NCBI GenBank assembly: GCA_902805975.1
Contig: CADCUT010000048.1
Span: 1-46,616, forward strand
Reading direction: 5' to 3'
Origin: an uncultured Rubrobacteraceae bacterium
Lineage (GTDB): Bacteria; Actinomycetota; Rubrobacteria; Rubrobacterales; Rubrobacteraceae
Length of the DNA: 46,616 nt
Below the pieces are notes generated by a model. That model saw nothing but the letters and a program-made list of their open reading frames with translations, did not search any database and was not told where the DNA came from. Of this stretch, positions 4,229 through 46,616 are shown in pieces (position 1 is the stretch's first letter; each line of letters starts with the position of its first letter). Position numbers and translations under genes: made by a program.

Positions 4229-4714
4229 CTAGCTGGCGGCCTCGACGTTGACGATCTCGTACTCCGTGGCGCCGCGCGGGGTGGAGACCATCACCTTCTC
4301 GCCGACCTTGCGCTTGAGCACGGCGCGGCCGACGGGCGAGGCGTGGGAGAGCTTGCCGCTCCCCGGGTCGGATTCGTTGGCGCCGACGATCTGGAAGGTC
4401 CGCTCCTGGCCCCCGTCCACGACCCGCAACGTGACGCGCGTCCCGAGATCCACGGCATCCGTGCCGACCTGGGAAGGATCGACGACCTTCGCGTTTCGGA
4501 CGCGGCGTTGGATCTCGCTGATCCTGCGCTCCAGAAGCCCCTGCTCGGCCTTCGCATCATCGTACTCGGAGTTCTCGGAGATGTCCCCGAACTCCCGCGC
4601 CTGCCGGATGCGGTCCGCGATCTCCTTGCGCCGCACGCCCGTCAGGTGGTCGAGCTCCTGTTGGAGCTTCTCCAACCCTTCCGGGGTAACGAGTTCTTGG
4701 TTCCTGTCAGTCAT
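4229..4714 (-). CDS. greA: Transcription elongation factor GreA
   Basis: Rescues backtracked RNA polymerase by stimulating transcript cleavage in the secondary channel. The 161-residue length is typical. The N-terminal coiled coil (about residues 8-75) carries the acidic tip region around GDISENSEYDDAK, and the C-terminal FKBP-like domain includes VGRAVLKRKVGEKV. The start is the ATG at 4714 (MTDRNQ), not the upstream in-frame codon at 4753, because the core promoter ends only about 10 nt before 4714. No Shine-Dalgarno is present, in keeping with a leaderless message. It lies downstream of coaX but is separated from it by repeat element A, and it probably leads the greA-lysS unit. Confidence 0.96.
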   Translation of the reverse strand: MTDRNQELVTPEGLEKLQQELDHLTGVRRKEIADRIRQAREFGDISENSEYDDAKAEQGLLERRISEIQRRVRNAKVVDPSQVGTDAVDLGTRVTLRVVDGGQERTFQIVGANESDPGSGKLSHASPVGRAVLKRKVGEKVMVSTPRGATEYEIVNVEAAS

Positions 4715-30361: not shown

Positions 30362-30916
30362 CTACTCGTAGACCTCCCGCCAGCTCCACTGGACGACCTC
30401 CTTGCCGGAACCTCCGGATGCCTCCAGGATGACCTCCACCTTGCGCCGCGTACCGCCGACGGTCCCCTCGGAGACGACCAGGAAGAAGTCCCTGTCGGGG
30501 TAGTCGGGGAGGCCGGCGGGGACCCGCTCCGGCGCGTAGCGACCGTCCCTCTGCTGCGCGGCGGTCCGGGCGGGGATCAGGTACCGGACCGTCACCCTCG
30601 CGGCGCCTCCGCCAGGGGCCAGCGTTACGCCGGGCGCGCCTCCGTCGGGTGAGACGTAGGCCCAGCCGGAGTTGTCCGGGCCTTCGGCGTCGTAGTGGTC
30701 CGGGTTCGCGTCGGTTCGTAGTCGCGTGGCGGCGGCCTGGGCGCCGGCGTCGGCGAGGTGCAGCGCCCTCTGGCCCCGGTTAGTCTGGATCGTGCCTTCG
30801 AGGTCGCCCCGCACGACCGCGAGGAGGCCGGCGGCAAGCACCCCGATAAGGACCACCACGATCACGGCCAGCCCAAGCGCCACCCCGGACTCATCCCGCC
30901 GGAAACGACGGATCAT
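30362..30916 (-). CDS. PilX-type pilus assembly protein
   Basis: 184 residues. A short charged N-terminus (RRFRRDESG) precedes a long hydrophobic helix (about 11-35), as in PilX_N proteins, which are minor pilin-like components. A Glu-type cleavage signal is weak (SGVALGLAV), so processing is uncertain. The rest is a beta-rich domain with an IPARTAAQQRDGRYAPE segment. It overlaps the PilW-type gene by 4 nt (ATGA) and is last in the operon. Confidence 0.75.
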   Translation of the reverse strand: MIRRFRRDESGVALGLAVIVVVLIGVLAAGLLAVVRGDLEGTIQTNRGQRALHLADAGAQAAATRLRTDANPDHYDAEGPDNSGWAYVSPDGGAPGVTLAPGGGAARVTVRYLIPARTAAQQRDGRYAPERVPAGLPDYPDRDFFLVVSEGTVGGTRRKVEVILEASGGSGKEVVQWSWREVYE

Positions 30917-31506
30917 CTGTTCCTCAAGGCCACGACCGTCCGGAGGACCCGCTCGACGGGCTCCCTGCCCGACTCGTTGTCAACGGAGACCTCAAGCACC
31001 ACACGCACCAGGCTGACGCTCTCTTCGTCTCCTACCTGGTCCCCGTTCGCGTCGAGGTACTCGAAGGTCAGCGCCCTGCCGTCCCCGTCCACGTCCCCGG
31101 CGGACTCGACCAGCAGCCTGCCGTTGCGCAGCGGAGCGCCGCTGGGGTCGAGCGTGTAGGAGATCCCCTCCCCAGCCTCCGCGAGCCCGGTTGCCGGGTC
31201 GACCGTCCTGCGGTTGCCGTTCAGGTCGTTGCCGAAGGCGAGCCGGTCCTCTCCGAAATCCGCGAGCAGCGTCGTGTCTCCGTCGGCCCTGGCCCGCGGG
31301 TACGCCGCGCGGATCTCTCGCTCCATCCTCGCCAGGCCGAGGCGTGCCGCCTGTACCGCCTCCGCCCTGTCGCGCCCCGCCCCGAAGACCCTCACGCCCG
31401 CGTCGAAGACCGCGTAGAGCGCGAACAGCACGGCGGCCGTGATCACGAGGGCCACGAGCGCCTCTGGGAGCGTGAAGCCGTCCTCCCCCGCCAGCCTACG
31501 CCTCAC
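30913..31506 (-). CDS. PilW/GspJ-type prepilin
   Basis: 197 residues from the GTG at 31506, whose codon overlaps the PilV stop in a GTGA junction. The leader VRRRLAGEDG is followed by the cleavage site G/FTLPEALVALVITAAVLFALY, with Glu at position 5 of the mature helix. The C-terminal domain carries a DGDGRALTFEYLDANGDQVGDEE segment. It is expected to be a minor pseudopilin at the pilus tip. The longer ORF start at 31557 is rejected because it lies inside the PilV gene. Confidence 0.8.
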   Translation of the reverse strand: MRRRLAGEDGFTLPEALVALVITAAVLFALYAVFDAGVRVFGAGRDRAEAVQAARLGLARMEREIRAAYPRARADGDTTLLADFGEDRLAFGNDLNGNRRTVDPATGLAEAGEGISYTLDPSGAPLRNGRLLVESAGDVDGDGRALTFEYLDANGDQVGDEESVSLVRVVLEVSVDNESGREPVERVLRTVVALRNR

Positions 31507-31940
31507 GGCGGTTCCCCGGATACGACCCCGACGGCCGCGTAAGAGCCCTCGTCCCACCGCACGAGAACCTCGACCCGCATCTGCCCGGTGGGTGGCGAGC
31601 CCGCGGGGTTGGAGAGCCGCCCGTCCACGAATGCGGTCCTGACGGTGACGCTGAGGTCGCCCTCGGTGGCGTCCGGAGCCCCGGGCGGCGCGTACCTCTC
31701 GACGGCGCTGTCCGCGGCGCCGCCGGGCCTGCTGTAGGGGAGCGCCCGCGCCTCCTCCAGCTTCTCGCTCGCGAGCGCGCGGGCCGCGTCGTACTCGCCG
31801 GAGGCCGTGGCGGCGCGCAGGCCGGCCTCCAGCACGCCGACCATCGGGACGACGGCGAGGGTGAGGACGACCATCGCAACCGATACCTCGACGAGCGAGG
31901 AGCCGGTCCCGTCAGCCCACCTACTCGTAGACGATCCCAC
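31503..31940 (-). CDS. PilV-type prepilin
   Basis: 145 residues from the GTG at 31940. The 13-residue leader ends DGTG, and cleavage before SSLVEVSVAMVVLTLAVVPM places Glu at position 5, the PilV/GspI pattern. The C-terminal domain is short. Its start lies 20 nt inside the end of the GspH-type gene and its stop overlaps the PilW-type start. Confidence 0.78.
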   Translation of the reverse strand: MGSSTSRWADGTGSSLVEVSVAMVVLTLAVVPMVGVLEAGLRAATASGEYDAARALASEKLEEARALPYSRPGGAADSAVERYAPPGAPDATEGDLSVTVRTAFVDGRLSNPAGSPPTGQMRVEVLVRWDEGSYAAVGVVSGEPP

Positions 31941-32544
31941 CGACCCGAATCCTCGCCGTGGCCGCCTGGAAGATGAGGCCGCACGACGGGCTGCCGTCAT
32001 CGGAGCTGACCCTGACCGTGCCGCTCGTCCCAGGGCGCAGGGTTCTGACGGTCCCGTTGGAGTTGAACTCGATGGTCCGCGTGGCCCCTGGCCCGCAACG
32101 GCTCGGGGGGACGACGGCGTCCGGGTCGCCGCCGGAGCAGTCGGGGTCGAAGGTTACGTCCTTTACCTTCGTGCCCTCCGGCAACTCTTTGGGCGCTGGA
32201 GGGGCCCCGGGCGCCAGGGCGGGGGATGCGTCGCCGGCGTCGTAGGCGGTCTTCAGCTTGACGAGGCAGTAGTCCGCCCCGGAGCAGGCCGCGAGCGGCG
32301 TGCCGTCGTGCGTGAGCACCAGGCGCCAGTCCGTCAGCTGCTGGGTGGCGTTTGTGTGCGCCAGCCGCATGTCCGCGGCGAGTTGGGCCGCGGCGGCCTC
32401 GACCCGCCAGCGCTCCAACAAGGCGAGGAAGATTATCACGGAGATCGCGGCAAGGAGCCCCGCGATGGCGAGGGCTGTCAGGACCTCGGGCAGCGTGTAG
32501 CCCCGCCGGTCCTTCCATACTCTTTTGAGACCCGCCCCGAGCAC
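31921..32544 (-). CDS. GspH/FimT-type prepilin
   Basis: 207 residues. After a 15-residue leader ending DRRG, the mature N-terminus YTLPEVLTALAIAGLLAAISVIIF is a classic prepilin helix with Glu5. The globular domain has RVEAAAAQLAADMRLAHTNATQQ (GspH-like) and four cysteines that could form disulfides. It is first in a four-gene overlapping operon of minor prepilins. No pilus motor, prepilin peptidase or PilM/N/O genes are in the window. Confidence 0.85.
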   Translation of the reverse strand: MLGAGLKRVWKDRRGYTLPEVLTALAIAGLLAAISVIIFLALLERWRVEAAAAQLAADMRLAHTNATQQLTDWRLVLTHDGTPLAACSGADYCLVKLKTAYDAGDASPALAPGAPPAPKELPEGTKVKDVTFDPDCSGGDPDAVVPPSRCGPGATRTIEFNSNGTVRTLRPGTSGTVRVSSDDGSPSCGLIFQAATARIRVGGIVYE

Positions 32545-36857: not shown

Positions 36858-38432
36858 ATGGAGAAGGCTACAGGCGGCCCGCCGGAGAGCCCGACCCGCA
36901 GGGCGGCCACGATCGCGCGGGTCGGGGCCCGCTACGGGTTCGGGTTCGTCTTTGGTGGCCGCCTCTCCCGCCGCGGACCGGCGGACACGGGGCGGATCGG
37001 ACCCCGGCTCCGCCTCTCTTTAGAGGAACTGGGCCCGACCTTCGCGGAGTTCGGACGGTTTCTCTCCGCCCGGGGCGACCTGATCCCCCCCGACGTGGCC
37101 GCGGAGCTCGCCCGCGCCGCAGCCCCCGCCAAGCCGGTCCCCTTCGCCGAGACGAGGGGCATCGTGGAGCGGGAGCTCGGCAACACGCTCGAGCGGCTCT
37201 TCGTCTCTTTCGAGGAGGCGCCGGTGAGGACAGGAGCGCTCACCCAGGCCCACCGGGCGACGCTGCCCGGGGGGAGGCCCGCGCTCGTCGTCGTGGACCG
37301 GCCAGGCATCCGCCGCGACCTCCTGGCGATGCGCCCGGTGGCGGACCTCACGCGGCGCAGGATCGGCGCGCAGCTCCCGCTCGACCCGAATCTCTCGGTC
37401 TCCGAGTTCACAGCCCACGTCAACCACCGCAGGGACATGTTCTTTGCCGCCAGGATCTCCCACCAACTACGCGAGATGGACGGCTTCGCCCTCCGAGTCC
37501 CCGAGCTCTACCGGAGCCTCTCCACCGGCCGCTGCGCCACCTTCGAGGCTCCAGCCGCCCAGGAGGCCGTGGACGGGACCGGACACCGCAAGGTCGCCGG
37601 CGCCCTCGCACGGCTCGCGCTCCTTGACGGCATCTTTTTCGCCGACCCGTCCCCGGAGCGCTTCGCGGTAGACGGGCTCACCGGGGAGGTCTGGCTTCTG
37701 GACCCGACGGAGGTCTTCTCGCTCGACCCGGAGAGGCTGCGCGGGGTTGCCGAGGTGCTGGCGGCCGTCCGCCGGGGGGACGTGGACGGGATGGTGCGGA
37801 CCCTTCCCCTCGCCGGGGGCACCGTCCCCCGCGACGACGCCGACCTCAGGCGCGAGCTGCGGGAGGCTCTAGGCTCCCTCGGGGGCCCGCTCTGGGAGGA
37901 GCACACCCTGGCGGTGATGCGGACGCGGGCTCTTGAGGCCCTGCGCCGCGGCGGCGCGAAGCTGCACGACGAAGTGGCGCAGGCGGCCCACTCCCTGGTG
38001 GCCGCGGAAGCCCTCTCCGGCAAGGAGACGCATACGGCCGCAGAGGCTGCCCGGGCGCTCGTCGCCCGCCACAGGGACCCGGCCTACGTGGCCGCCCGGA
38101 CGGCGCGCAGGCTCGCCCAGCCCGACACCTTCGCCGACTACCCGCGCCAGATCCACGCCCTGCTCGACGAGCTCAAGGACGGCGAGGTCGAGGTCCGGTT
38201 CCGTCACGCGGGCCTCGACGACCTGATCGGACGCGTAGACATCCTCGCCAACCGCCTGGTCTTCGCCCTCCTGATCGCCGCCCTCATCATCGGCTCCTCG
38301 ATGCTCGGCATCTTCGTCGAGGGCGGACTCCAGATCCTCGGCGTCAGCGTCTTCGGCCTGATCGGCTTCGTCTTTGCCGCAGTCCTGGGCTTGCTTCTTC
38401 TCATCGGAATCATCCGCTCAGGACGGCTGTAG
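36858..38432 (+). CDS. UbiB/AarF-like protein with degenerate kinase motifs (pseudokinase)
   Basis: 524 residues that follow the UbiB/ABC1 plan: GPTFAEFGRFLSARGDLIPP (normally GPTFxKxGQxxSxRxDxxP), a TQAHRATLPGG loop, a RPGIRRDLL helix and two C-terminal TM helices (about 465-520). Catalytic positions are lost: the Lys of KxGQ becomes Glu (EFGR, 64-67), the VAVK Lys becomes Val145, HPGN becomes SPER (266-268 region), and DFG becomes DPT (Asp282). So it probably does not phosphorylate; a structural or lipid-binding role is inferred. No quinone genes are adjacent. The ATG is 36858. Confidence 0.75.
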   Translation: MEKATGGPPESPTRRAATIARVGARYGFGFVFGGRLSRRGPADTGRIGPRLRLSLEELGPTFAEFGRFLSARGDLIPPDVAAELARAAAPAKPVPFAETRGIVERELGNTLERLFVSFEEAPVRTGALTQAHRATLPGGRPALVVVDRPGIRRDLLAMRPVADLTRRRIGAQLPLDPNLSVSEFTAHVNHRRDMFFAARISHQLREMDGFALRVPELYRSLSTGRCATFEAPAAQEAVDGTGHRKVAGALARLALLDGIFFADPSPERFAVDGLTGEVWLLDPTEVFSLDPERLRGVAEVLAAVRRGDVDGMVRTLPLAGGTVPRDDADLRRELREALGSLGGPLWEEHTLAVMRTRALEALRRGGAKLHDEVAQAAHSLVAAEALSGKETHTAAEAARALVARHRDPAYVAARTARRLAQPDTFADYPRQIHALLDELKDGEVEVRFRHAGLDDLIGRVDILANRLVFALLIAALIIGSSMLGIFVEGGLQILGVSVFGLIGFVFAAVLGLLLLIGIIRSGRL

Positions 38433-38444
38433 GCTCCTCCCTCC

Positions 38445-38583
38445 GGGCGCTTTCAGCCCGGCGCTCCGCGCCCCTCGGCTTGTTGCTCGTGGTGTGAGAT
38501 CGGGCGCTCTGAGAGAATGCCCGGGTTCGGCGAACGGTTTACGGACGGCGGTTTCGCGGAAGACCTGGTAGCTGAAAGCGCCC
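38445..38583. repeat. 13-bp perfect inverted repeat between UbiB-like and flavin reductase genes
   Basis: GGGCGCTTTCAGC (38445-38457) and its exact complement (38571-38583) are 113 nt apart. The left copy starts 13 nt after the UbiB-like stop codon, so its layout echoes the heptad elements (arm at a stop, arm before the next start), but the sequence is not made of 7-bp units. It could fold as a long transcript hairpin. Confidence 0.55.
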
Positions 38584-38619
38584 GTCAGGGCGCGTGCTAC
38601 GAGCGGCGAAGGAGCGAGC

Positions 38620-39096
38620 ATGGAACAGACGCGCAGTGAGATCTTGAAGACCATTCCCTACGGCTTCTACATCACGGGCGTGGTGGGAGCGGATGGGGAG
38701 GCGAACGGGTTTACGACCTGCTGGGTCTCGCAGGTCTCCTTCGAGCCGCAGCAGGTCGTGATCGCCGTCCGGAGGGACCAGCGCACCCACGAGCTCATGG
38801 AGCAGGGCGGTGTCTTCTCCCTGAACTTCCTCGACACGGAGCAGGAGGACCTGGCCAACCGCTTCACCCAGCCCCTCGAGCCGGAGAACGGCACGGTCGG
38901 CGGCGCGGCCTACGTCAAGGGAGAGACCGGGGCCCCGCTCTTCGAGGACGCCTTCGCCCATCTCGAATGCCGCGTGGTTGGAAAGATGGAGGCCGGGGAC
39001 CACACCGTCTACCTCGGCGAGGTCGCCTCGGCGAACCTGCGACGCCCCGCCGACATCCTAACCGACCTCGACACCCCCATGGAGTACGGGGGCTGA
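38620..39096 (+). CDS. Flavin reductase family protein
   Basis: A 158-residue FMN-binding split-barrel protein of the flavin reductase-like family. The N-terminal part (IPYGFYITGVVGADGEANGFTTCWVSQVSF) is the flavin-binding signature, and RRDQRTHELMEQGGVFSLNFL follows the typical NTHxLI region. It supplies reduced flavin to a partner monooxygenase or reduces a flavin-linked substrate; no partner is nearby. AAGGAG precedes the ATG by 7 nt. Confidence 0.88.
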   Translation: MEQTRSEILKTIPYGFYITGVVGADGEANGFTTCWVSQVSFEPQQVVIAVRRDQRTHELMEQGGVFSLNFLDTEQEDLANRFTQPLEPENGTVGGAAYVKGETGAPLFEDAFAHLECRVVGKMEAGDHTVYLGEVASANLRRPADILTDLDTPMEYGG

Positions 39097-39173
39097 ACGG
39101 CCCCGCCTAAAGCCCCCCGCCGCGACGGCCGAGAAACAAGAGGACCGAAGGCGGCTACGAAAGCGGGGCGAAC

Positions 39174-39293
39174 GTGGGCGATGGCATCGCGACGGGTGGC
39201 TTGCCCGACGGGACCACCGGGCAGGAGGGCCAGCTCCCGCGGCTTCTTACGGACGGGCGGGGTTTCACGCTCGTGGAGTTGCTCGTCGTGGTA
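39174..39293 (+). pseudogene. Truncated type IV prepilin (PilA-like), interrupted by an integrase
   Basis: 40 codons from the GTG at 39174: a 30-residue leader ending DGRG, then the mature helix FTLVELLVVV. Prepilin helices normally continue with a conserved hydrophobic stretch such as ILGILAAIAIP; here the frame breaks after VVV into the reverse of the serine integrase. The rest of the gene is not found in the window. The break position matches an integration site in the most conserved codons. Confidence 0.75.
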
Positions 39294-41007
39294 ACGTTGC
39301 CGTTTCGCAAACGGCCGTTCCCTGGGGCGCACCTGCCCAGCTCACCTCGACGGTACCGTCGGTCCCGATGGCGGCCTGGAGGCGCAGCAGCTTGTACCAT
39401 TGCTGCCTCTCCTCTGGCATGAGTGAGTCGAGGACCTCGGGCGCCATGGCCTCCAAGGAATCGATGAGTGCATCCCGGTCGCGCTCCAAGTCCCTGACGC
39501 GCTCCTCCTGTCCGCGCACGGCGGCGAGTTCGCGCTCCGCGATCCCGCGTGTTTCCTCAAGTTCTGCCAGCCTTGCGCGCAACTCGTCGAGGGTTATTAG
39601 GTCGCCAGCGGCCATCTCCTGATAGCGGGCGCGCTTACGGTCAACCTCCGCGAGCTTCTCCGCCCATCGCCCGGCTTCCTTGCCCGGGTCTCCCCGGGTC
39701 CCCTTCTCCAGCTCGATCATGCGGTCGATGTCGGCGCGTAGATCCTCGGGGTTCTTCATCACGCCCGAGACGTACTCCCAGACGAGCGGCTCCACGCGGT
39801 CCACGCGGTGGACCTTGCGGTTGGGGCACGGGTTGTGCTCGTAGCCTACGCTGACCCTGGAGCAGTGATAATAGAAGCTGATCTTCTTACCCTCGGTGCG
39901 CCGCCCGCCGCCGTGCGAGGTGAGACAGCGCATTGCCCAGCCGCACTCCGCGCAGCGGGCGAGGCCGCCGGAGAGCTGCCACTCCCGCTTGCCGGCCTGC
40001 GAGGCCTTCTTGTTGTCCTTGATAGCCGCCCGCGCCAAATCCACCCACTCGCGGGGAACGCCGGAGTCGGGGATGGGGACGGCGATCCACTCGGTCTCAG
40101 GCCTCGGCGTTATCTTGGCGCGCTTCTTGTAGGTCTTCCCTTCGGGGCCGTTGACGGCCACCTGGTACCTCTTCGTCCGCCGCCTGTTGAACCACCAGAT
40201 CCCGTAGCGCTTCTTGGGGTCGAGCCGGTCGGCCACCTCTCGCGCCATCTGACCCTTGGCGACGAGGGCCTCTATCTCTTCCCAGGTGTGCGGCCGGTAG
40301 GCGTCGTCGTTCACCGCTTCCCGGATAAAGAATTGGCCCCAAATGCACTTTCCCTCGGGAGTGGGCAGTCCCTCCCGCTCGAAGATCTTCTTCACGCCTC
40401 GGATGGCGACGCCCTCGGTGCCGATCATGCGGAAGACGCGCCCCACGACGTACATCGACTCCTCTTCGACCTCGTAGCCGTCCCTAGTAGCGTTGTAGCG
40501 GAAACCGAAGTGTGGGCGCTTGGTCGCGATCACCTTGCCCTCCCGCGCCTTCCTGAGCTTCCCCCGGCGGCTGCGCTCCGCGATCTTGAGTCGCTCGTAG
40601 CGCGCGATCTGGTCGAGGATGCCGGTAGTCAACTCGCCTTCGGGGCTCCCGTCTGCGCGGTCGTTAAGCGCTCTCAGCTCAGTCCCGCACTCGGAGAACT
40701 CCTCCCGCAGGTAGAAGAGGTAGGCGGGCTCGCGGGCGAAGCGGTCGCGGTCCTGCGCCAGCACGATGGAGACGCCGCCGGCCGCTACGAGGTCCCGCAC
40801 CCGGTCCATGCCGGGCCTCTCCAGGGAAGCCCCGCTCTGCCCCGGGTCCACTACCTCTTCCAAGACCTCGTAGCCTTCGGCGGCGGCGTAGGCCCTGAGG
40901 GCTTCTATCTGTTGGGCCAGGGAGTAGCCGCTGCGGGCCTGCTCGTCGGTGGAGACGCGGGCGTAGAGGACGGCTGTCTTCGGGCCGTGGCCGCTGAAGT
41001 TGGGCAT
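39265..41007 (-). CDS. Large serine recombinase (site-specific integrase)
   Basis: 580 residues. The N-terminal catalytic domain has the nucleophile Ser19 in ARVSTDEQ, and the RFAREPAYLFYLRE and GILDQIARYERLKIAERSRRG segments typical of the large serine integrases. A recombinase domain follows, then a zinc-ribbon with CAECGW and a YYHC/CPNRK pair near residues 355-400, and a coiled-coil C-terminal region (about 440-545). The last dozen codons read through the prepilin gene remnant, so the integrase 3' end lies at the attachment site. It is intact and could be active. The XRE gene lies 2 nt upstream. Confidence 0.93.
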   Translation of the reverse strand: MPNFSGHGPKTAVLYARVSTDEQARSGYSLAQQIEALRAYAAAEGYEVLEEVVDPGQSGASLERPGMDRVRDLVAAGGVSIVLAQDRDRFAREPAYLFYLREEFSECGTELRALNDRADGSPEGELTTGILDQIARYERLKIAERSRRGKLRKAREGKVIATKRPHFGFRYNATRDGYEVEEESMYVVGRVFRMIGTEGVAIRGVKKIFEREGLPTPEGKCIWGQFFIREAVNDDAYRPHTWEEIEALVAKGQMAREVADRLDPKKRYGIWWFNRRRTKRYQVAVNGPEGKTYKKRAKITPRPETEWIAVPIPDSGVPREWVDLARAAIKDNKKASQAGKREWQLSGGLARCAECGWAMRCLTSHGGGRRTEGKKISFYYHCSRVSVGYEHNPCPNRKVHRVDRVEPLVWEYVSGVMKNPEDLRADIDRMIELEKGTRGDPGKEAGRWAEKLAEVDRKRARYQEMAAGDLITLDELRARLAELEETRGIAERELAAVRGQEERVRDLERDRDALIDSLEAMAPEVLDSLMPEERQQWYKLLRLQAAIGTDGTVEVSWAGAPQGTAVCETATLPRRATPRA

Positions 41008-41009
41008 AG

Positions 41010-41225
41010 CTACTGCCCGGGGGTGAGGGACGCGGGATCTACGGAGAGGGCTTCCGCTAACTTGCGGATGGTGCGCGGGTGGACCTCGATGGAGTCGCCG
41101 CCCTCTATCCGCCAGACCGTGTTGTGGTTGATGCCGGCCTTGTCGGCCAACTCGCGCTGGGAGAAGAAATTCTCTTCCCTTGCAGTCCTGACTTTTACTC
41201 CGTCTATTTTCACGTCGGTGAGCAT
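41010..41225 (-). CDS. XRE-family helix-turn-helix regulator
   Basis: 71 residues from the ATG at 41225 (GGAGG 6 nt upstream); the longer ORF from 41273 runs through the operator and is rejected. SQRELADKAGINHNTVWRIE is a typical HTH_3 fold with the recognition helix around NTVWRIE. It is expected to repress or control the adjacent integrase: the stop is 2 nt before the integrase ATG, so both are co-transcribed. The 71-aa length is short but complete for the domain. Confidence 0.85.
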   Translation of the reverse strand: MLTDVKIDGVKVRTAREENFFSQRELADKAGINHNTVWRIEGGDSIEVHPRTIRKLAEALSVDPASLTPGQ

Positions 41226-41275
41226 CCTACGCCTCCTGTCTTCGCGCGCCAATTTATAGATGATTTTAGACAATA

Positions 41276-41297
41276 TATAGACAAAAACAAGTCTATA
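41276..41297. promoter_or_regulatory. Palindromic operator and A/T-rich promoter of the XRE-integrase unit
   Basis: TATAGAC and its complement GTCTATA flank an 8-nt A-rich centre (41276-41297); a third TAGAC lies at 41267-41271. On the minus strand TTGTTT overlaps it and TAAAAT follows 16 bp later, a plausible promoter for the XRE-integrase mRNA. Binding of the XRE protein here would give autoregulation. The 41255-41320 stretch is far more A/T-rich than the rest of the window, a sign of transfer. Confidence 0.6.
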
Positions 41298-41382
41298 GTG
41301 TACAATTAGGTCGTTGCATAAAGAGATGGCCCCGGCGAGTGCGCCAACACTCCCGAGGCCCGGCCCACTACCTTAAGGAGGA

Positions 41383-42390
41383 CTAGGGCCTGTCTGCAAA
41401 ATCAACATGGATTCTATCGTCGCCGACGCTGCTCGGAGGCTCCGTTACTTGCCAACGTAGACCCTCGACGAGCCAGCCGTAGGCCTGCGCCATGGTGGCA
41501 TCGTACTCCCATTGCTTCAGGGTAGCGATCAGCTCCCAATAGCGTTCCATGCGCGGATCGTACGTTCGCTCGTGATGGGAGAGCATCCGCTCAGCGAAGC
41601 GCGCATCGTCCCGTTTGCCTGCGGCACGCGCAGAGGCATCTACCCAGTCCGCGACAACGCCCTGCCCGTACTCTCCGGTCGGGGGACGTCCCTCTCGAAT
41701 GGCCGACTTGGCTCTACCGATCGCGGTATTCACGGCCTCGTTCCAGCCGGTGGTGTCGAGGTTTTCCTCGGCCGTCTCCGAGACGGGTTTCGTTTGGTTC
41801 TTGAGGGCTGCGACGAAGCTATCGTCCGAGGCCAGCTTCGCGAGCTCCGTCCAAGCCGCGAGCTGCTCCTCGTCGAACTCCTCGGGCATGCCGGACACGA
41901 TCGCTCGCCAGAATCCGGCTTTCGCCTCGGGATCCACGGGGGCACCTTGGAGGCCTCTTTCCAGATGTTCGGCGAGGAAGGCCTCCCGTTCCTTCGCCTC
42001 GAGCACCCCGAGCGCCTGTGCCCGGTCGGGGTAGCGCTGCTCGTCTTCCGCGCCGCTTTCGAGAGCGGATTCGAGCAGCTTACGGCGCCTGCGCAAGGTC
42101 CGTATCTGGAGGTCCAAGGTCTCCATCTGTAACCTGAGCGCGTCCGACGCCTCGCTCTCCTCTTCGAGGATGGCACCTATCTCCGAGAGTCCGAAGCCGG
42201 CGGCCCTCAGCGTGCGGATCAGTTGGAGACGCGAGCGGTCCGTCTCGGAGTACATGCGGTAGCCGGCCTCGGTGATCCCCGAAGGGGGCAAAACACCCAC
42301 GTCCGAGTAGTGTCGAATGGCCTTCACCGTCACCCCGCTCATGCGGGCCAGTCTACCGATGCTGTACGGCGCTTCTTTTCCCGAATCCAC
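41383..42390 (-). CDS. MerR-family transcriptional regulator
   Basis: 335 residues. The N-terminal MerR domain (YSIGRLARMSGVTVKAIRHYSDVGVLPP, then RMYSETDRSRLQLIRTLRAAGFGLSEI) is followed by a coiled-coil dimerisation helix (about 85-112). A long all-helical C-terminal domain (about 125-335) of unknown ligand follows, as in TipA-type regulators. GTG start at 42390. It is divergent from the DUF2268 gene and its binding site is the MerR-type promoter between them. It probably activates that gene. Confidence 0.88.
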   Translation of the reverse strand: MDSGKEAPYSIGRLARMSGVTVKAIRHYSDVGVLPPSGITEAGYRMYSETDRSRLQLIRTLRAAGFGLSEIGAILEEESEASDALRLQMETLDLQIRTLRRRRKLLESALESGAEDEQRYPDRAQALGVLEAKEREAFLAEHLERGLQGAPVDPEAKAGFWRAIVSGMPEEFDEEQLAAWTELAKLASDDSFVAALKNQTKPVSETAEENLDTTGWNEAVNTAIGRAKSAIREGRPPTGEYGQGVVADWVDASARAAGKRDDARFAERMLSHHERTYDPRMERYWELIATLKQWEYDATMAQAYGWLVEGLRWQVTEPPSSVGDDRIHVDFADRP

Positions 42391-42400
42391 GGGCTCTCCC

Positions 42401-42431
42401 TTGACTCTCCACCGACAGGAGACCTTATGTT
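42401..42431 (+). promoter_or_regulatory. MerR-type promoter with 19-bp spacer
   Basis: TTGACT (42401-42406) is followed by exactly 19 bp and TATGTT (42426-42431). The spacer holds CTCTCC near the -35 and GGAGAC near the -10, an imperfect inverted repeat (5 of 6). A 19-bp spacer is the hallmark of promoters that MerR proteins untwist. It reads into the DUF2268 gene, 55 nt ahead of its ATG, and lies between the divergent genes. Confidence 0.75.
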
Positions 42432-42485
42432 ATCCGACGAACCGTCTAAAGCCGGACGGGTACGCGAACACGGGAGGTAAAAGAT

Positions 42486-43406
42486 ATGCCGGAGGTAAAG
42501 ACCATTGACGTTTTGGAAGGGCAGCGCAGCGCGCTCCTCGCTCCAGCCACCGGCAGACGAGCCCTTTACAGCGAGCGGGTGATGGAGCCCTTGAGGCCGT
42601 TGTGGGAGCACATAATGAGCTTCATGCCCGCGGGGGCGGCCTCGGGATCGGGCGAGGGAGGCGATCCCGCCCTGGCGGCGGCGCGTCTCATCGGCCTCTA
42701 CGATCCCGACTCCGATGCCGGGGAGGGCATCGACGCCCTGGCCGAGCTAGACAAGAGAGACTCCTTTGCTGGGTGCGTGCGGGCACAGGAGTCGGCCTTG
42801 GAGGCGCTCAGCCCGCAAGAGCATGGAGTGGACTTCGAGGGCGTGACCTTTGCCCTGGCGCTGGCCGATCCCCGGACGCCCGACCTGATGGAGCGCCATG
42901 CAGGGTACATGGGCGGGGCGTCCTTCTCCGACTGGATACTGGCTTACGTGTGGCCCACGGACTACAACCTGCCGCGTCTGCCGGCCCTGGCCGTTCACGA
43001 GTTGCACCACAAAGTGCGCTTGGCCTTCGAGCCTTGGGACGAGACGACCACCGTCGGGCAGTACTTGGTTCTGGAAGGACTCGCCGAGGCGTTCGCCGCG
43101 GAGAGGTTCGGCGAGGAGTTGCTCGGACCGTGGACGAAGGCGCTTACCGAGGACGAGCTGGAAACGGCGCGGCCGGGCATGCGAGACGCCCTGGAGGTAA
43201 GCGGCTTCAACGAGATTCGCGGCTACATATTCGGGGACTGGGCGGCTCCGCAATTCGGCTATGATCCCCGCGGGTTGCCGGACTTCGTCGGCTATTCGAT
43301 GGGCTACCGGCTGGTGCGAGAGTACCTGCAGCGCACGGCGCGCTCGGCGGTGGAGGCCTCCTACGTCCCCTGGGGGGAGATCGTCGAAGGGTCGCGCTAC
43401 TTCTAG
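42486..43406 (+). CDS. DUF2268 (YjaZ-type) putative zinc protease
   Basis: 306 residues. The HExxH motif is HELHH at residues 171-175, followed by a family-typical EGLAEAFAAERFG segment that supplies a third glutamate ligand. DUF2268 includes Bacillus YjaZ; a peptidase role is inferred. The gene is divergently paired with the MerR regulator and transcribed from the 19-bp-spacer promoter. It starts at ATG 42486. Confidence 0.82.
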   Translation: MPEVKTIDVLEGQRSALLAPATGRRALYSERVMEPLRPLWEHIMSFMPAGAASGSGEGGDPALAAARLIGLYDPDSDAGEGIDALAELDKRDSFAGCVRAQESALEALSPQEHGVDFEGVTFALALADPRTPDLMERHAGYMGGASFSDWILAYVWPTDYNLPRLPALAVHELHHKVRLAFEPWDETTTVGQYLVLEGLAEAFAAERFGEELLGPWTKALTEDELETARPGMRDALEVSGFNEIRGYIFGDWAAPQFGYDPRGLPDFVGYSMGYRLVREYLQRTARSAVEASYVPWGEIVEGSRYF

Positions 43407-43440
43407 CCGCGCCAACGGCAACCCGAAGAGGCGCGCGGCC

Positions 43441-43746
43441 ATGAAGGACGAGCTTGCGGACGGGCAGTGGGCGCAGCTCTTGCCGCTGCTTCCTCCACAG
43501 AGGCCGATGCGGGGGCGACCGGCCAAAGATCATCGTGTGGTCGTAAACGCCATCCTGTGGCTGCTGCGCACCGGCGCACCGTGGCGGGACCTGCCGGCCG
43601 ACGCGGGGGTGTGCTGGAAGACGGCCGCCAGCCGCTTCTACTGGTGGACCGCTTCCGGCGTGTGGCAGAAGGTGCCCCATGCGCTGCAGGAAGATGCCGA
43701 CGGGCGCGGAAACCTCGACCGGTCCAGGCACTTCGTGGACGGCAGC
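43441..43746 (+). mobile_element. IS5-family transposase fragment
   Basis: The first about 100 codons of an IS5-type transposase (DGQWAQLLPLLPPQRPMRGRPAKDH, then AILWLLRTGAPWRDLP and HFVDGSS). The frame is lost at about 43746, where sequence homologous to a serine recombinase C-terminus begins in reverse. The DDE catalytic core and both inverted ends are missing. It is a dead insertion sequence remnant. Confidence 0.85.
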
Positions 43747-44220
43747 TCAGAGTCCTCTACATCAAGCGCACTTTCCCGCGCCGCTTGGCCCGGCCCGGGC
43801 TCGGGTGGCCCGAACCGGTAGGTGATCTCGACCCTCGGGCGGCCGTCCTCGCCCCGGCTCACGGTGATCCCTTCCACCAGCAGCGTCGCTAGCTCGCGGC
43901 GGGCCCCGAACGCCCCCTCTGTGTCCTGCTCAACGTCCGCGAGGTTCTCCCTCAGCGTGAGTAGCCACGCCTCGGTGGTCCGGGCTACGAGCGCTCGCTC
44001 GTCCTTGGCCGCCAGGTCGACCTCGACGGCGGCGACCAGCATCTTGAGGTTCTCAACCTGGTTCTTGAGGTCGGCCAGGTGGCCCTCGAGCTCCTCGTCG
44101 TCAACGAGCCCCTGAGCGTAGAGCTTGACGTAGCGATCCTTCTCGCCCCGCTTGGACGCCAGTCGCCTCGTGAGGGACGCGTGACGCTCTTCTAGGCCCT
44201 CGCCCTCTGGGTCGCGCCGG
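43747..44220 (-). pseudogene. Serine recombinase C-terminal fragment
   Basis: About 155 codons of a large serine recombinase C-terminal half: a coiled coil (LTRRLASKRGEKDRY to VDDEELEGHLADLK), then LRENLADVEQDTEGAFG and the terminal VEGITVSRGEDGRPRVEITYRF motif, a common integrase ending. The N-terminal catalytic domain is absent, and the C-terminus runs into antisense transposase sequence. It is distinct in sequence from the intact integrase at 39265-41007, so a second, older element was here. Confidence 0.75.
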
Positions 44221-44224
44221 CGGG

Positions 44225-44610
44225 TCGCACCAAACGCACGCGGAGACGAAAGAGCCCCAGTCGGGACGGAACTTATTGCCGATGTATCGTTCGGGGATGA
44301 CGCTGCGTGCGATCGACTCCAGGTCTTTGCTCCAGGCCTCCGACGTGTCGAGCCACTCTTCTAGCTCCTTCTGCGGGTCGGGTAGCCCGGGCGGCGACAA
44401 CGTCCAGTGTACGGGGTGTGGGGGCAATTGGGCACTGGCCTCGACCCCCCAACGGTCGCGGACGTCCCTCACCGCCTCCCAGAACGGGCCGTCCTGTGTG
44501 AACAGTTGGACCACGAGTTCGCGCTTAAGGGCCACTATCTTAGTGTCCGCGCTCGACTGGATAAACCGAAGGTCGTCGGCCCGTTCTTCGTTGCCTGCTA
44601 GACTCCCCAT
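44225..44610 (-). pseudogene. Hypothetical protein truncated at the recombinase remnant
   Basis: The 5' part of a gene (about 127 codons) reads MGSLAGNEERADDLRF to RYIGNKFRPDWGSFVSACVWCDPP and then shifts out of frame into the serine recombinase fragment. I do not recognise a family; it is mostly helical, charged and soluble. Its 3' end is lost. It probably was cut off when the second element recombined or decayed. Confidence 0.5.
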
Positions 44611-44671
44611 GAGCTGTGACGCGGACCCCGATCCTCAATGACCGTCAGGCCCGCGCCGCGCCTCCTTTTTG

Positions 44672-44989
44672 TCAGCTCTGCGGTAGCCCCGGCTCGCGCA
44701 CTACGACGACTTCGTAGGTGCCCATCTGAGGGTGCCCTCGCAGCATCCCCGTGCCGCCCCCCCTGCCGTGCGCCGTCTTGAATTCATCGCTACGGACCCA
44801 GGAATCGAAGGCATTCTTGTCTTCCCAGCGCGTGATCCCCATGACCTCGTCCGCTTCCTCGGAGCGCAGGACCTCCATCGAAACGAAGCCCGGAAAGTCC
44901 TGCACGAACCCCCGACCATTCGCGAACCGCTCGACGACCTGGTCGGCCAGGCCTTCTTTCACTGGTAACCGGTTAATGACAGCGATCAT
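44672..44989 (-). CDS. Antibiotic biosynthesis monooxygenase (ABM) domain protein, IsdG/HmoB-like
   Basis: 105 residues with a ferredoxin-like ABM fold. The IsdG-type heme oxygenase triad is present: Asn6, Trp64 and His74, the last two 10 residues apart as in IsdG. The MGITRWEDKNAFDSWVRSDEF segment matches the conserved core. Heme degradation and iron release is thus plausible but the triad alone does not prove it. The gene is monocistronic. Confidence 0.8.
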   Translation of the reverse strand: MIAVINRLPVKEGLADQVVERFANGRGFVQDFPGFVSMEVLRSEEADEVMGITRWEDKNAFDSWVRSDEFKTAHGRGGGTGMLRGHPQMGTYEVVVVREPGLPQS

Positions 44990-45120
44990 CCAGAACCTCT
45001 CGTCGTCGATAAGCCATCGAGGCGGTCAAGCCTCGTTCTTATGTTAGCAACAAGCGTCAGCCTCGGAGCGGGTGGAGAAGGTGCAGATGGTTGACATAGC
45101 TCTTCCCCACCGGCTCCAGC

Positions 45121-46122
45121 TCAACCCCCGCGTCGGCTCTGCTCCTTGCGAAGCAAGAGCCAGGTCAGGATGCCCGGGCCGAGCACGGAGGCCCCAATGG
45201 CGGCTGCGCGTCGCGCCTTGAGCGCGGCCCGACGTTTAGCTCCCTGGTTGAACCCGCCGTCCGCCGAAGCCCATTCCGCGGAAGACTCGTAGAGGTTTCC
45301 GGGGGAGGACTCCGCCGGCTCCTGGCGCAAGAGACCGCGCTCGACCGTCCGCGCCGCGGCGCGCTCGACGATCCGCGGCGCGAGGGCGTGCGCGAGTCTC
45401 AGGGTTCTCACGGAGTTGCCAACGACCACCTCAGGCCGCGGCCTCTCGGCGCACCGCACGACCACGCGGGCGATCTTCTCGGGGCTCGCGAGGAACCCAT
45501 CGAACCCCATCGCCCGCCCCGAGTAGTTCGCGGCGAGCCGGTAGGCGGGGGTGTCCACGCCGCCAGGCATGATGGTGCACACATGGATGCCGGTGCCGCG
45601 CAGCTCGCCCCTCAGGGCCTGGGCGAGGCCGCGCTGGGCGAACTTGGTGGCCGTGTAGGCGCCCGCGTAGGGCGCCCCCACGAGCCCGAAGCCAGACGAC
45701 ATGTTGATGAGCACGCCGGAGCCCTGCTCCCTGAAGCGCGGAAGCGCGGCCTGCGCCCCGTAGACGTACCCCAGCAGGTTTGCCTCGACGACCCGCCGGT
45801 TCGCCTCGGGCGGGACCTCCTCGAGCCTGCCGACCGCCGCGAGTACCGCGTTGTTGACCCACACGTCGATGCGGCCGAACCGCTCGACGGCCCGACGCAC
45901 CAGTTCCTCGACGCTCCCCCACTCCGCCACGTCCGTCGGCACGGCGAGGGCCTCCCCGCCACGGGCCTCGCACTCGGCGGCGGCCTCGAGCAGCGCCCCC
46001 TCCGAGCGTGCCGCGAGGACCACCGAGGCGCCACGCTCGGCGAAGCGCCTCGCCGTTGCCCGCCCGATGCCGCGGGACGCCCCGGTGATCACCACGACCA
46101 TTTCCTCAGCACGAGGTCGCAT
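45121..46122 (-). CDS. Short-chain dehydrogenase/reductase with C-terminal extension
   Basis: 333 residues from the ATG at 46122 (preceded by a G-run). The classical SDR core shows VITGASRGIGRAT (cofactor loop), WVNNAVL (modified NNAG), a mid-protein MSSGFG serine and the YTATK catalytic Tyr-Lys. A C-terminal extension (about 250-333) ends in a hydrophobic helix, so it may be membrane-anchored. The substrate is unknown. Confidence 0.88.
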   Translation of the reverse strand: MRPRAEEMVVVITGASRGIGRATARRFAERGASVVLAARSEGALLEAAAECEARGGEALAVPTDVAEWGSVEELVRRAVERFGRIDVWVNNAVLAAVGRLEEVPPEANRRVVEANLLGYVYGAQAALPRFREQGSGVLINMSSGFGLVGAPYAGAYTATKFAQRGLAQALRGELRGTGIHVCTIMPGGVDTPAYRLAANYSGRAMGFDGFLASPEKIARVVVRCAERPRPEVVVGNSVRTLRLAHALAPRIVERAAARTVERGLLRQEPAESSPGNLYESSAEWASADGGFNQGAKRRAALKARRAAAIGASVLGPGILTWLLLRKEQSRRGG

Positions 46123-46146
46123 CCATGCACCCCCCGGCGAAGCCAC

Positions 46147-46360
46147 GCTCGATCATATCCTTGCTCCCACGATCCGTTGAAGACTAAATCCTTACTGCGC
46201 GTTCTAGTAGCCGCGTGGACCCTACACCGTGAGCCCCCACACACCCGTACGCTGGGGAGACGAAGGCGCCCTTGCGACACGAGCGAGCGCCAACGAGACG
46301 GGCACAGCGTGTGGTGACACTGAAGGGTCCTCCTAACCCGCCGTCAACGCCTTTAATTGC
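46147..46360. other. Intergenic stretch, no gene seen
   Basis: Between the SDR start and the end of the MFS gene I see no convincing frame, tRNA or hairpin. The SDR promoter should lie just above 46122. Confidence 0.4.
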
Positions 46361-46616
46361 TCAGTAAACGCGTCCGCGGCCCGCGCCCAGCGCCAGGGCG
46401 ACGGCTGCCAGCAGCATGGGCGCGACGACCCCGAACGCGGTCCCTATGCCGACCCGGTCGGCCAGCGCCCCTAGCGCGAACGGTGCTATGAGGACCGCGC
46501 CGCCCCCGCCGACCGCGAGCCTGGCCGCGGCGGCGTCGGCGTTGCCTGGGGCCGCGGCCAGGGCCGCCGAGACGCCCAGTGGGTAGACGCTGCCGATGCC
46601 GAACCCGGTGAGAAAG
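46361..46616 (-). CDS. MFS transporter, C-terminal end (5' end outside window)
   Basis: About 84 codons before the TGA at 46363-46361. The fragment shows two or three C-terminal TM helices with an ALGALADRVGIGTAFGVVAP loop (the MFS A-type GxxxDR pattern of the last half) and a short cytoplasmic tail GAGRGRVY. The substrate cannot be predicted from this part. Confidence 0.75.
   Translation of the reverse strand, partial: FLTGFGIGSVYPLGVSAALAAAPGNADAAAARLAVGGGGAVLIAPFALGALADRVGIGTAFGVVAPMLLAAVALALGAGRGRVY

Follow-up and report, generated by a model that had tools for sequence, protein, structure and literature searches.

An integrative element whose large serine integrase appears to use the helix codons of a type IV prepilin as its attachment site in a desert-soil Rubrobacteraceae bacterium

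The window, by which we mean the whole stretch of DNA that was analysed (46,616 nucleotides), is all of contig C48 of G000, the metagenome-assembled genome (MAG) of a Rubrobacteraceae bacterium of desert soil, with an assembly of 3.53 Mb in 238 contigs and a completeness of 82%. Its left part is ordinary chromosome, with genes for lysyl-tRNA synthetase, pantothenate kinase, HPPK, FtsH-like and TilS homologues, tRNA-Met, a BCCT transporter and YchF. Two minor prepilin genes form a small cluster there (30.9-32.5 kb), about 7 kb from a further prepilin gene that is interrupted (Table 1). Foreign DNA starts at 39293 and leaves the window at the contig end, 46616.

Table 1. Features of the window and repeat arrays on other contigs (G, C and L numbers are our handles for genomes, contigs and loci; positions without a handle are those of the window)
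Feature	Position	Strand	Basis or remark
Minor prepilin-like gene	30913..31557	-	Pfam N_methyl; same arrangement in complete genome G006
Minor prepilin, N_methyl + GspH	31921..32544	-	Pfam
Flavin reductase, left chromosomal neighbour of prepilin	38620..39096	+	Pfam Flavin_Reduct 2.2e-33; synteny with G004 at 89%
Interrupted type IV prepilin, 5' fragment (leader, GFTLVELLV, to V9 codon)	39174..39292	+	Frame, Pfam, empty-allele comparison
attL	39248..39332		B half-site 39248-39287, core GTGGT 39288-39292, P arm AACGTTGCCGTTTCGCAAACGG from 39293
Crossover overlap GTGGT (core dinucleotide GT, 39288-39289)	39288..39292		attP dyad centre
Large serine integrase, 580 aa	39265..41007	-	Last 8 residues and stop in prepilin DNA
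Inserted element, left 7.3 kb	39293..46616		Runs off contig; continues 6.4 kb on G004:C453 (L067)
XRE-type HTH protein directly upstream of integrase	41010..41225	-	Pfam HTH_31; ATG at 41225, open frame to 41273
MerR-family regulator, element DNA	41383..42390	-	Pfam
DUF2268 putative Zn protease, element DNA	42486..43406	+	Pfam
ABM monooxygenase, element DNA	44672..44989	-	Pfam
Short-chain dehydrogenase, element DNA	45121..46146	-	Pfam
Repeat arrays (~65-bp repeat)	L067:7255-11639; L123:5589-10529; L138 (G000:C147); L139 (G000:C199); L140 (G004:C143); L141; L142 (G005:C5)		

The interrupted gene has the leader, the GFTLxE class III signal and the hydrophobic N-terminal helix of a type IV prepilin. 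Its GTG-started frame reads VGDGIATGG...TDGRGFTLVELLVVV, that is, a long leader followed by RGFTLVELLVVV, after which the sequence is no longer that of a prepilin; the fragment matches Pfam N_methyl with 21.6 bits and breaks in the mature N-terminal helix, at codon V9. The nearest relative of the leader among 40 related genomes lies on contig C306 of a congener, AVDCRST_MAG01 (G004), where the prepilin is intact (142 aa, reading GFTLVELLVVVVIIGILAAISIPTYIGQQ..); N_methyl scores above its cut-off in both copies. Window and G004 DNA are 89% identical over 38351-39292, and the identity ends exactly at 39292, which bears out the proposal of a first-pass annotation, made from the letters of the window, that the prepilin frame breaks within the conserved helix codons, through the comparison with empty sites of related strains that it had suggested. 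The order of flavin reductase, prepilin and prenyltransferase-desaturase genes is uninterrupted in most other members of the genus, with only parts of the locus sharing one contig in some fragmented congener genomes. The empty G004 allele and these uninterrupted loci identify the fragment as the scar of an insertion rather than a divergent gene. A second intact copy of the prepilin, which would have spoken against this as the original locus, was not found in G000; besides the interrupted gene, that assembly yielded no N_methyl genes but the window's two minor prepilins. As a separate observation, a prepilin frame on G050:C150 (L206), reading GGFTLQEVLTVIAILGILVAIAIII up to a stop, ends after about 46 codons with no integrase nearby and may represent a nonsense mutation or a pseudogene.

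The gene overlapping the break on the other strand encodes an N-terminal resolvase domain (PF00239, 6.5e-32) and a C-terminal zinc-ribbon domain (PF13408, 2.2e-8) in a protein within the 450-700 aa range of large serine recombinases, and the TP901-1 integrase is among its relatives with a solved structure. Its stop codon (39265-39267) does lie within the prepilin sequence, as had been noticed at first pass; in the circular form of the element the integrase frame would run on into a different tail. The HTH gene ends 2 bp before the integrase gene and is kept beside most sister integrases (at least 20 by tblastn), making its product a plausible regulator or directionality factor of the integrase. 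A scan of viral contigs returned no close integrase, and relatives in plasmid and phage records reached at most about 32% identity among the matches listed.

A search for the right half of the prepilin found it neither in the window nor in the assembled G000 genome. The first-pass annotation had looked to the same genome for this half and for the right junction; both exist, on a contig binned in another MAG (G003:C99, L123), and the prepilin sequence thus does not lack its downstream part. This contig shares 4,461 bp with the right flank in G004 at 99.7% identity, beginning at the same point with the overlap GTGGT, and the prepilin half is preceded by unrelated DNA, as expected of attR. Since G003 already has a more distant, intact prepilin copy of its own on C11, C99 should come from a G004-like strain, and the G004-like species then has both an empty (G004:C306) and an occupied (G003:C99) allele. 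attL and attR belong to separate MAG bins, with two species-level backgrounds, and each contig covers one end only.

With attL delimited by the empty-site comparison, by attR on G003:C99 and by the symmetry of attP, the latter was rebuilt by joining both element sides via GTGGT (..GCAAGAATACG-GTGGT-AACGTTGCCG..). In the rebuilt site 15 of 25 positions are dyad-symmetric about the boundary between G and T of GTGGT (39288/39289), a score reached by 0.02% of 20,000 shuffles (p=0.0002), while the best score at other centres inside the overlap is 8, and outer GCAAACG blocks stand at equal distances from the centre on both arms. The dyad centre fixes the core as GT, bases 1 and 2 of the V9 codon in the mature pilin. 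The near-palindrome GGTAACGTTGCC (39291-39302), earlier offered as the core, is ruled out by this centre and falls in the P arm. An attP beside the integrase gene, dyad-symmetric and with a short shared core, hybrid attL and attR sites, and an attL 3' of the integrase gene are what a serine-integrase attachment system presents, and the symmetry, being the layout expected of such a site, ties both junctions to one integrase. The empty site, the two junctions and the symmetric attP agree that the end of the element is the attachment site, as had been supposed, and establish at the level of sequence that a serine-integrase element is inserted in the prepilin helix codons. We propose, with a probability of about 0.92, that the window holds the attL of an integrative element whose large serine integrase uses prepilin helix codons as attB, and that the prepilin is thereby split. 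The integrase would recognise as attB the DNA encoding GFTLVELLVV/VVIIGILAA and recombine attP into it at the GT core, so that the signal peptide, with the first helical turns, is parted from the remaining pilin. Both the activity of the integrase and its regulation by the HTH neighbour are presumed in this scheme, in which excision by conservative recombination would restore the prepilin gene exactly.

The element DNA from 40438 to 46616 is 100% identical to G004:C453 (6,179 bp), against 89% for the chromosomal flank, a difference to be expected after recent movement of the element or from a misbinned contig; G004:C453 may have entered the G004 species by recent transfer or been binned with it in error. 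The cargo of the left 13.7 kb comprises MerR, DUF2268, ABM, SDR, MFS and RibD-like genes, followed by aminoglycoside acetyltransferase-like, GNAT, DUF5946, hydrolase and sigma factor genes; the right 5.7 kb carries a sigma factor, a PD40/Ig-domain protein and a probable anti-sigma protein, so named for its position beside the sigma gene. No virion structural, packaging, lysis or conjugation genes were found in these end segments of 13.7 kb and 5.7 kb, the middle of the element lying outside the contigs. The acetyltransferase-like gene (L067:8343-9092) is predicted to encode an aminoglycoside 3-N-acetyltransferase (Antibiotic_NAT, 3.9e-62). An element end at 41382, considered for the 77-91% homologues of MerR-DUF2268 elsewhere in the family, was rejected: these homologues have different left neighbours, and the true right end is on G003:C99. 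The pair itself (window 41383-43748; L098:2126-4492) has a 91% copy in G004:C332, which adjoins ParA-like and DNA-binding-like genes and whose identity begins exactly at the MerR stop; it appears to travel between contexts.

Several contigs, chosen for their multiple repeat copies, carry a ~65-bp repeat (core CGAAGTTCGGAGAATnACCCTTCCACGCACTCCGGTGAATAGG) in arrays between genes (Table 1), among them both contigs with the cargo ends of the element (L067, L123); none were found in the window. Neighbouring copies share the same orientation in 39 of 40 cases, 31 of the 35 gene-bearing intervals contain a single gene, and gene directions are mixed (17:22). Rfam, plasmids and viral contigs yielded no match to the repeat. 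The arrays resemble those of integron cassettes, but an integron was rejected as the explanation: the integron integrase IntI (TIGR02249) is above its cut-off in 0 of 36 Rubrobacteraceae genomes, G000 included, and in only three genomes of other families. A gene-cassette system that lacks an integron integrase and is carried on serine-integrase elements disabling host DNA uptake is a rather doubtful reading of the arrays.

Relatives of the integrase occur in 29 of the 148 related genomes searched, and target genes were named by reading past the 3' end of about 41 sister integrases into the abutting DNA. Eight of these Rubrobacteraceae integrases sit in DNA-uptake genes: two in prepilins, three in comEC (G010:C97, G003:C83, G020:C270) and one each in pilC, pilB and comEA. 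The window prepilin and pilC were checked base by base against an intact relative; the other uptake-gene assignments rest on profile coverage and broken frames. The second prepilin (G010:C77, signal reading FTLQE) is interrupted at the same codon as in the window; the P arm matches, and the integrase there is decayed by stops and a frameshift. The pilC case (G000:C174, L158, 2847-4529 and 4450-5691) comes from the MAG that also contains the window: another serine integrase of this family is inserted in the pilC 3' end with the last pilC codons replaced, and identity to the intact pilC locus of the complete genome G006 stops at 4523. pilB (G003:C55) is cut at TGHLVLATL; an earlier placement at Walker A was wrong. 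The comEA target (G051:C270, L163) had likewise been taken for a comEC 5' region, and there (1-205) the integrase frame is in phase with the comEA C-terminal helix-hairpin-helix codons and uses the comEA stop. With 20-40 such genes per 3,500, at least 7 of 41 in uptake genes corresponds to p values of 4e-9 to 4e-7, which are approximate, a few sister insertions being orthologous pairs and the genes having been named after looking. The repeated use of pilus and DNA-uptake codons by sister integrases makes the prepilin target no one-off. The tree pairs the two prepilin integrases as sisters (support 98/93), and the users of pilC, pilB, comEC and comEA fall on other, separate branches, so that uptake-gene targeting probably arose several times.

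What draws these integrases to such genes is less certain. Conserved sites and dispensable genes are likely reasons, and blocked DNA uptake, protecting the element, is possibly a further one. That the use of uptake genes is incidental, the integrases picking conserved coding sequence with no gain from the loss of uptake, is a serious contender to which we would give somewhat less than even odds: about 33 of some 41 sisters have unrelated genes as targets or neighbours (Mn catalase, tenA, radC, ymdB, bchB-like), whereas eight insertions in a set of perhaps 20-40 genes are far above expectation, and uptake targets recur in several separate branches of the tree although equally conserved core genes abound.

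Whatever the reason, a prepilin split in this way would not be made while the element is present, and carriers have probably lost pili or DNA uptake. The minor prepilins in the window, together with a second set in G006, whose eight N_methyl genes form two groups, each with one prepilin like the interrupted one, leave room for redundancy between prepilin groups and make loss of the pilus uncertain; provided that both contigs are from one strain, the additional hit in pilC raises the likelihood of a pilus-negative lineage. It is unlikely, though well within reason, that the element is a decayed, immobile remnant and the prepilin permanently lost instead of switched: the G010:C77 sister is decayed and neither MAG spans an intact element, but the window integrase keeps both domains in an intact frame of 580 aa, the element is present in some alleles and absent from others, and two bins carry it without a difference over 6.2 kb. 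Very improbable is a junction produced by metagenome assembly or binning, fusing integrase and prepilin contigs at conserved sequence: the MAG is in 238 contigs and contigs of one species do appear in the bins of another (G003:C99, G004:C453), yet the element has no prepilin-like repeat at which to mis-join, an independent contig has the reciprocal junction, also at GTGGT, the two foreign sides give a dyad-symmetric attP centred in this 5-bp overlap, and in G010 the sister integrase interrupts another prepilin at that same codon.

An integrase-mediated insertion into the prepilin attB remains our reading, and it provides a complete attB/attP/attL/attR set for a new integrase whose natural target is prepilin helix codons. 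It also shows integrases of one bacterial family settling repeatedly on pilus and DNA-uptake genes, a natural series of related enzymes with different targets that makes it testable whether mobile elements profit from a closed transformation route. No report of a prepilin as a serine-integrase attB was found in a literature search that covered few subscription papers. A close parallel is with the Listeria comK prophages (A118 type), in which a serine integrase has its attB in a DNA-uptake gene and precise excision restores that gene. The likeness to comK drawn by the first-pass annotation holds in kind, given a large serine integrase with attB inside a gene of the uptake system and sister insertions at the same codon of a second prepilin and in pilC, pilB, comEC and comEA; unlike comK, the target here is a structural prepilin and not a regulator, the visible cargo is not that of a phage, and only allelic polymorphism is seen. 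Prophage SpST71A of Staphylococcus pseudintermedius is similar in that it inserts site-specifically and interrupts a gene from the operon for the competence pseudopilus, but it is a phage in the ATPase gene comGA, whereas the present element is in a prepilin (PMC7029219). The comM-disrupting elements of Acinetobacter and others also reduce transformation by interrupting a transformation gene; in contrast to the element described here, these are Tn7-like AbaR and other elements in a helicase gene and leave uptake intact (PMC11472951). Durrant et al. found DNA competence genes strongly enriched among the targets of large serine recombinases, and conserved sites shared by diverse recombinases, with no pilin target named in their main text (PMC10083194). 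Judged by the predicted targets, that published enrichment is seen here within a single bacterial family, where one family of integrases has reached several independent pilus and DNA-uptake genes.
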